DNA from: Herbinix sp.
Lineage (GTDB): Bacteria; Bacillota; Clostridia; Lachnospirales; Lachnospiraceae
Reading direction: 5' to 3'
Assembly (NCBI GenBank): GCA_029238935.1
Contig: JAQZBN010000013.1
Span: 19,089-83,088, forward strand
Length of the DNA: 64,000 nucleotides
In this document: positions 2,684 through 4,477 of the stretch, piece by piece
How positions within the stretch are numbered: the first letter of the stretch is position 1
Layout: each line of letters starts with the position of its first letter
Made by a program: the position numbers and the translations under genes
The notes under the pieces: model-generated
Told to the model about the DNA's origin: nothing
The model's input: only the letters and a program-made list of their open reading frames with translations
The model's database searches: none

Positions 2684-4477
2684 ATGTTTTACGATAATTC
2701 CCGCAACGAGTTTGTATCCGATGTTGGTATCCCCTATCAGGATATCAACTGGTATGACATGGAAGGTCAACCATTTGGTACAGCATCATACTTTAATGCC
2801 ATTATATTTGATAATGCAACGAATATTGTAGATACGAAAGGTGCGATGGCAGTAGGAGGTAATTTTACAAGCCCAAGAGGATTAAGTCTTGCTTATGGTA
2901 ATGAAACAAACCTCACAGGAACAGGTTATTCCCCTAACCATGTAAGATTTTTAGTAGGAGGAAATATAGCAACCGGCGGACCTTTGGTTGTGATAGGCCA
3001 TGTAGTAGCAGGAGGAAGTGCTAGGGTCGCACCCGGAAGTACTTATTTAATTGGAAAAGATTATTCTCCTGCTCAGGAGCAAACACTAGAATACTTGTAT
3101 CAGGCACCTGGAAGCAGTAGATATTGGAGGCCGAGTGACAGAGGAAATCATTATGCAATATCTAGTTATGATGTTCCTCGTTATATACCGGCTTCCAGAA
3201 TCGGTGCTAATGTAACTGAGTTCTTCCAGGATGCCAGAAGTAGTATTACTTATTATAAGAATTGTATCGATGCATTACAGCCGACCGGTACAGTAACGGA
3301 TAATTTCCATGAATGGGTATTAAGAGGCAATAATCCTAGACAAAACGTATTTGTGATTGATGTTCGGCCAACAGGAAGGTTGAATAAAGGCATTCGTGCT
3401 GAAGTTCCTGCGGGAAGTCTTGTAATTGTAAAACTGAGAACTGGAAATAACGCTTATCTGCAATATGGTGTTTGGGGAGAAAGAGAAAAAGTACACAACA
3501 CCTTATATGTATTTGAAGATGCTACGGATATCTGGATGGAAAAATCTTCGGAATTATGGGGCAGCTTCTTAGCTCCGCAAGCAATGTACCATGCACATTC
3601 AACCGGTGGTAATATCAATGGTAATGCAGCATTCCGTGCTCTTGAAGTGCCTGCGACCAGTGGTTTTGAATTCCATTTGTATCCGTTCTCCGGTGGTGTG
3701 GATTGTGTTGCGGTATCTCCGGTGGTTCCAGAAGCTCCAGTGATACCAGAAATACCGGCACCTGAAATTCTTCCGGTACCAGAGGTATTACCTGTACAGG
3801 AATGCCCAGAATGCCCGGCACCTGCTCCATGCCCAACACCGGCACCATGCCCAACACCGGCACCATGCCCAACACCTGCTCCGTGCCCAACACCTGCTCC
3901 GTGCCCTCCACAGGTCCCATGCCCGGCTCCTGTTCCGTGTCCGGAATGCCCTGAAATTCCAGAAATAGAACCAGTGACTTGTCCGTCCTGTCCGGAACCA
4001 ACACCTTGCCCGGATTGCCCAACCTGTCCAGAACCGACACCGTGCCCATCACCAGCTCCGTGTCCAGAATGCCCGACATGCCCAGAATGCCCGACTTGTC
4101 CGGAGGTAGCTCCTGAATACCTCCCATTCCCTGTACCAGTTCCAGTTCCTATCCCATGCCCAGAGCATGAATGCCCAGAATGCCGTGAGTGTGAAGAGTG
4201 TCTGGTATTACCGGGGTATATCTTTGGTTGCATCTCAGGCTGCTGCTGTTATAAACCACATGAGTGGGAAGTGAAATTATATAGTCTTTGTGATAACTGT
4301 GAAACCTTACTATGCTGTGTTAAAGTGGGTTGTTATGGATGTTTTGAATTTGTAGTTCCTTATGATGGATTTTATCAACTGAAGATCTGCCCGATCGGAA
4401 CCTACCGCAGTATCTGTAAACCAAGAGTGACCTTGAAAAATGTTGGTGTATCCGACCTTGTGATCGAATACAACTAA
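2684..4477 (+). CDS. choice-of-anchor A-type protein with Cys-Pro repeats and a Cys-rich C-terminus
   Basis: Residues ~20-345 resemble the 'choice-of-anchor A' / collagen-binding-like adhesive domain ('FNAIIFDNATNIVDTKGAMAVGGNF' at the start; 'SSELWGSFLAPQAMYHAHSTGGNINGNAAF' at its end). Residues ~370-515 are a Pro/Cys stalk built of CPTPAP, CPECPTCPE and related units. The last ~90 residues are a Cys-rich domain containing 'GCISGCCCY' and 'CDNCETLLCCVKVGCYGCFEF'. No signal peptide, membrane helix or sortase motif is visible, although related anchor-A proteins are usually exported. That would suit a protein made in the mother cell and cross-linked onto a spore surface, but this is inference. 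The start is firm: AAGGAGG then five T and ATG. Confidence 0.7.
   Translation: MFYDNSRNEFVSDVGIPYQDINWYDMEGQPFGTASYFNAIIFDNATNIVDTKGAMAVGGNFTSPRGLSLAYGNETNLTGTGYSPNHVRFLVGGNIATGGPLVVIGHVVAGGSARVAPGSTYLIGKDYSPAQEQTLEYLYQAPGSSRYWRPSDRGNHYAISSYDVPRYIPASRIGANVTEFFQDARSSITYYKNCIDALQPTGTVTDNFHEWVLRGNNPRQNVFVIDVRPTGRLNKGIRAEVPAGSLVIVKLRTGNNAYLQYGVWGEREKVHNTLYVFEDATDIWMEKSSELWGSFLAPQAMYHAHSTGGNINGNAAFRALEVPATSGFEFHLYPFSGGVDCVAVSPVVPEAPVIPEIPAPEILPVPEVLPVQECPECPAPAPCPTPAPCPTPAPCPTPAPCPTPAPCPPQVPCPAPVPCPECPEIPEIEPVTCPSCPEPTPCPDCPTCPEPTPCPSPAPCPECPTCPECPTCPEVAPEYLPFPVPVPVPIPCPEHECPECRECEECLVLPGYIFGCISGCCCYKPHEWEVKLYSLCDNCETLLCCVKVGCYGCFEFVVPYDGFYQLKICPIGTYRSICKPRVTLKNVGVSDLVIEYN
3830..3901 (+). repeat. 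18-bp tandem repeats encoding CPTPAP
   Basis: Four in-frame 18-bp units each encode Cys-Pro-Thr-Pro-Ala-Pro. They are flanked by degenerate CPxP and CPECP units reaching from about 3800 to 4210. Third positions vary between copies (ccg/cct, gca/gct), so selection appears to act on the peptide rather than only on recent slippage. Confidence 0.85.

Follow-up and report, generated by a model that had tools for sequence, protein, structure and literature searches.

A putative spore-surface adhesin with a proline-rich stalk and a cysteine-rich foot in Herbinix sp.

The gene at positions 2684 to 4477 (+) of the window, the 64,000-nucleotide stretch of Herbinix sp. DNA analyzed here, probably encodes a spore-surface adhesin that is made by the mother cell late in sporulation, its head directed outward and its foot fixed in the coat or exosporium. 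We infer sigma-K control, spore location, cross-linking, orientation, and ligand; such an adhesin may help spores of plant-digesting bacteria to stick to things. The spore surface of Lachnospiraceae is little known. The gene provides a named candidate whose architecture is clear, whose promoter allows a direct test of when it is expressed, and whose head has a plausible ligand.

Gene, head domain, and orthologues

The open reading frame is an intact single gene that encodes 597 amino acids from an ATG start, preceded at a spacing of 5 nt by the ribosome-binding site AAGGAGG (2672–2678, +). An equivalent site is found in the orthologues, with a strong ribosome-binding sequence before nearly every start (33 sequences). 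The gene is present as a single copy in its own genome (157 contigs, 8% estimated contamination), and comparison with PHROGs gave no match pointing to a phage origin. Residues 30–337 (2771–3694, +) were assigned to the choice-of-anchor A (CAA)/pAdhesive_15 head family, with E = 3.3e-32 and 112.8 bits for PF20597 (curated cut-off 23.8), the sole Pfam family matching the protein, and E = 1.1e-29 and 104 bits for TIGR04215 (curated cut-off 29). The adhesive-type domain proposed in the first-pass annotation was thus borne out far above both cut-offs. The 40 cysteines comprise one in the head (C194), one at its edge (C341), 24 in the stalk, and 14 in the C-terminal 97 amino acids; the orthologues likewise contain one cysteine within the first 330 residues. 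Prediction of the full-length structure was poor (pLDDT 47).

Orthologues were identified in 31 of the 34 sampled genus members and in one of the 27 other genomes of the same sample; several of the relatives are uncultured assemblies. Judged by the curated family matches and by the occurrence of one orthologue per genome across the genus, with 63 to 72% head identity, the architecture of the window gene is not a product of chance. Named genomes with orthologues also include Lacrimispora algidixylanolytica, L. amygdalina, and Konateibacter massiliensis. An orthologue very similar to those from Lacrimispora is carried by a record titled Paenibacillaceae bacterium (L034, SVDU01000010.1), whose organism name is probably wrong. 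Three genus members that have spoIVA and dpaB (G014, G019, and G021) gave no match to the gene, which has either disappeared from some lineages or escaped detection because assemblies are incomplete; the gene thus appears not to be needed for sporulation. Comparing its presence with that of sporulation genes within the genus was uninformative, as nearly all members have both spoIVA and dpaB (dpaB gave no match in the incomplete assembly that contains the window). A literature search retrieved no direct record of Herbinix spores, and many relatives are uncultured.

Absence of an export signal and the upstream promoter

The first-pass annotation had noted that the protein lacks a signal peptide and an anchor, and this proved to be common to all orthologues. 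The 33 sequences with an N-terminus showed no signal peptide, LPXTG motif, or transmembrane segment. By hydropathy, the only measure used for signal peptides, the maximum over 12 N-terminal residues was 1.01–2.05, and no 19-residue segment exceeded 1.80. The orthologues begin with a short polar stretch followed by GIPYDDINWYD or a similar sequence. In contrast, most of the remaining CAA proteins in the order begin with signal-peptide-like sequences (hydropathy 2.2–3.6), often together with LPXTG-like tails (SPKTGE/LPQTG-type sorting sequences at the C-terminus in several), whereas the family studied here has neither and ends in a cysteine-rich part of its own. Signal peptide and surface anchor, although usual in CAA relatives, lie outside the definition of the domain. 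An upstream start that would add a signal peptide, named beforehand as a finding that would speak against the annotation, was rejected: the in-frame extension of about 31 codons contains no ATG, GTG, or TTG, overlaps the promoter, and shows no conservation.

The −35 element of the gene is GCAC (2566–2569, +), and the probable −10 region is GAATAAACT (2585–2593, +), in which AATAAACT lies 16 nt after GCAC. A further block, TGAGAATA (2599–2606, +), follows just 3′ of the −10 region and is kept in most orthologues. In an anchored alignment of 33 upstream regions, GCAC-N15-GAATAAACTG-N3/4-TGAGAATA stood out as a block amid weakly conserved DNA, with peak information content at GAATAAACT. The arrangement GCAC-N15/16-GAATAAACT was exact in 25 of the 33 orthologues with fixed spacing, and GCAC-N15-GAATAAACT extended at fixed spacing into Lacrimispora and Konateibacter, where the surrounding DNA is not conserved. 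Elsewhere the exact promoter occurred at no other gene of the genome that contains the window and, apart from this gene, gave only a few stray matches in 61 genomes.

The interpretation of this promoter was calibrated on known mother-cell genes of the same genus. At the cotJ operon, each of the 14 unclipped loci carries GCAC-N16-CATAAnATA, and dpaA mostly has GCAC or TCAC-N17-CATATAATG, whereas the sigma-E gene spoIVA has ATATCATA...GCATATCTT without GCAC. YabG, considered as a further sigma-K calibrator, was absent from the sampled genus members. In Clostridioides difficile, the −35 element is AC for sigma-K and ATA for sigma-E with similar −10 elements, and the sigma-K regulon includes dpaA, cotJB2, and bclA genes (PMC3789822). 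As GCAC is common to cotJ and many dpaA genes and absent from spoIVA, the −35 element of the gene is, by this comparison, of the sigma-K type. The assignment of the −10 element to AATAAACT is likely: compared with a CATAnnnT-like box, expected 16–18 nt downstream of the −35 element, the ATA and the T match, and the first base is A rather than C, a deviation that is itself conserved. Sigma-54 and sigma-H promoters were also considered by eye and rejected; there is no −12 TTGC, and distant orthologues do not retain the AGGA-like stretch. In the leader upstream of the gene in G013 (L029), tandem copies of TATCAAGGAGGTAAAACCTCCGTTATAAG were observed, in each of which the ribosome-binding sequence pairs with CCTCC in a possible hairpin.

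Two other readings of the upstream region bear on the timing of expression. If the block were a promoter for sigma-A or another factor with TGAGAATA as −10 element, expression would not be specific to sporulation, and a promoter scan indeed lists TTGTCA-N16-GAGAAT at 2578–2605 (9 of 12). We nevertheless consider this very improbable, given that a conserved −35 element at the right distance is absent, that the distance from GAATAAACT to TGAGAATA varies, and that L038 loses TGAGAATA yet keeps GCAC-N15-GAATAAACT. The divergent sigI-rsgI pair, which lies beside the gene both in the window and in many genus members, could be taken as a sign of a vegetative surface adhesin that leaves the cell by nonclassical export, perhaps under this adjoining carbohydrate-sensing pair. 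Control by SigI was rejected because the same promoter is retained beside other neighbors where sigI-rsgI is not adjacent (L006, L011, L025, L028, L030, and Lacrimispora). With no known export route and a −35 element equal to the sigma-K type, a vegetative adhesin appears quite unlikely. Conserved absence of an export signal, the sporulation genes of the genus, and the GCAC element shared with cotJ and dpaA together favor the outer spore layer made by the mother cell over the unusual export route, the two options that the first-pass annotation had offered, and so lend support to the former.

With regard to the neighboring genes, the listed TTG start of sigI (1659–2405, −) at 2405 adds nine residues; a TTG near 2378, after GGAGGTGTACC, is probably the start, as the orthologues begin with MRELD. 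The shared intergenic region contains a Spo0A-box-like TGTCGAA (2429–2435) upstream of sigI.

Stalk and C-terminal domain

The proline-rich stalk comprises residues 342–500 (3707–4183, +) with 61 prolines and 24 cysteines. The CPTPAP/CPECP stalk described in the first-pass annotation applies to the window protein but not to the family: among the orthologues, stalk length ranged from 101 to 202 amino acids and cysteine number from 2 to 33, and several had nearly cysteine-free PAPAP/PTPPPR stalks. The dense cysteine-proline stalk of the window protein lies towards one end of this range. The "dozens of cysteines" were confirmed by count, whereas the emphasis on those of the stalk was misplaced, as they are evolutionarily dispensable and the cysteines of the C-terminal domain are not.

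The spacing of the stalk cysteines is highly regular. Pooled over all orthologues, which are not independent of one another, 355 of 367 gaps between successive cysteines (97%) were multiples of three, mainly 3 or 6; the corresponding values were 12% for proline, 24% for alanine, 43% for glutamate, and 46% for threonine. Nearly all cysteines share one phase in most orthologue stalks; in the window stalk 20 of 23 gaps were multiples of three, and phase shifts are present (majority phase 0.50). A polyproline-II helix has three residues per turn. Thus, if the stalk adopts this helix, the spacing places the sulfurs on one face, where they possibly form a ladder for cross-links. The period of three could have arisen without selection by expansion of 9- or 18-nt repeats (3- or 6-residue units); the one-face geometry of a polyproline-II stalk holds with either repeat expansion or selection.

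The C-terminal cysteine-rich domain (residues 501–597; 4184–4474, +) contains 14 cysteines and seven predicted β-strands. All complete orthologues retain it apart from one in which it is broken by Ns, and every complete copy has 11–16 cysteines; in a set of seven sequences the invariant residues include C506, C516, C520, C522, C578, H526, and W528. AlphaFold2 modeling from the seven sequences gave the seven strands with a pLDDT of 87.8 and a pTM of 0.77. No Pfam family matched the domain at E 10, and a Foldseek search of the PDB gave no match at E 0.001. The domain was detected in nine of the 392 genomes sampled from the order, each of which also encodes the head, and a class-wide sample added one weak fragment outside the family (E 5e-4); in neither sample was it found joined to a different head. 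This domain is the conserved foot of the molecule, which makes it, and not the stalk, the likely anchor.

Proposed assembly and comparison with known systems

In the favored model, a spore-surface adhesin, sigma-K RNA polymerase would transcribe the gene, as its promoter suggests, and the protein would be translated without a signal peptide within the mother cell. None would be needed, since the developing spore lies directly within the cytoplasm of the mother cell; other proteins of the coat and exosporium are known to be made in this way. The C-terminal β-domain would serve as a foot, fixed in the coat or exosporium through disulfides or metal, and the stalk would form an extended polyproline-II spacer whose cysteines, spaced every 3 or 6 residues, could zip neighboring stalks together along one face. 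The CAA head would face outward and bind a surface glycan, for which cellulose or a related plant polysaccharide is the foremost candidate, based on the one family member tested for binding.

Alternatively, the product might be an inner coat or structural protein whose cysteine-rich portions form a layer, with the head acting purely in assembly and not as an outward adhesin: CsxA and ExsY are cysteine-rich spore proteins that build cross-linked layers (PMC7333573), and the outward direction of the window protein's head is itself a proposal. The combination of a head, a long spacer, and a conserved terminal cysteine domain suggests display rather than tiling, and the head is nearly cysteine-free and belongs to a family that is otherwise surface-displayed, so that we regard this alternative as unlikely. 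The high cysteine content, and a stalk that could bind metal, would also suit a cytoplasmic metal-binding or redox-buffer protein; a stalk cysteine number between 2 and 33 among orthologues, the unfitting CAA head, and the sigma-K-like promoter make this extremely improbable.

Several spore systems resemble the proposed adhesin in part. BclA-type exosporium nap filaments are made by the mother cell and carry a head on a proline-rich, low-complexity rod of variable length, as proposed here. BclA has a collagen-like GXX rod, a C-terminal head, and an N-terminal anchor. In the window protein the order is reversed and the stalk is CPxPxP/CPxCP; the Pfam scan gave no collagen family indicative of a GXX repeat. 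CsxA, ExsY/CotY, and CdeC/CdeM are cysteine-rich spore proteins for which assembly via disulfides is known or proposed, and the window protein resembles this type in being cysteine-rich without a signal peptide; they show no sequence family match to it and have neither adhesive head nor proline stalk. CsxA-like proteins form disulfide-linked exosporium layers decorated with filaments (PMC7333573), which would provide a setting for a cysteine-rich foot. Ena (DUF3992) appendage subunits are all-β, cysteine-linked domains of about 100 amino acids made in the mother cell (PMC12921279 and, in part, general knowledge); the C-terminal domain gave neither a DUF3992 match (Pfam, E 10) nor a PDB fold match (E 0.001).

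Among CAA (TIGR04215)/pAdhesive_15 (PF20597) surface proteins, with which the window protein shares its head, Jonah-1 of Acanthamoeba is a cellulose-binding lectin of the outer cyst wall, and the Jonah CAA fold resembles ice-binding β-helices (PMC6541295, PMC11423589). Like the window protein, Jonah-1 has a single CAA domain and a low-complexity segment, which is rich in threonine, lysine, and cysteine (PMC6541295), and it belongs to the outer layer of a dormant cell, as proposed here. It differs in being eukaryotic, in having a signal peptide and an N-terminal cysteine-rich part, and in lacking a cysteine-proline stalk. By analogy with Jonah-1 alone, cellulose binding is a candidate function of the window head. 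A supplement legend in PMC6541295 mentions a "spore coat protein" of Bacillus that has a CAA domain, and our literature search found no paper tying a CAA protein to clostridial spores.

A more far-reaching proposal, which we put forward tentatively and consider rather doubtful, is a distinct class of spore filament, in which polyproline-II stalks, zipped to their neighbors by a one-sided cysteine ladder, each carry a cellulose-binding CAA head that keeps spores of plant-degrading clostridia on their substrate, with stalk cross-linking tuned by lineage. If the gene product is indeed a stalked spore adhesin, it would show a route to such a structure other than collagen, in which the number of cysteines along one side of a proline rod sets the cross-linking density, and by which spores of plant-fiber degraders could keep hold of fiber.

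A second CAA group without a signal peptide was also observed (L112–L115). Its members, about 414–426 amino acids where complete, start with NFGLA and end in a short cysteine tail (e.g. CICRCNK); they are possibly another spore protein family.
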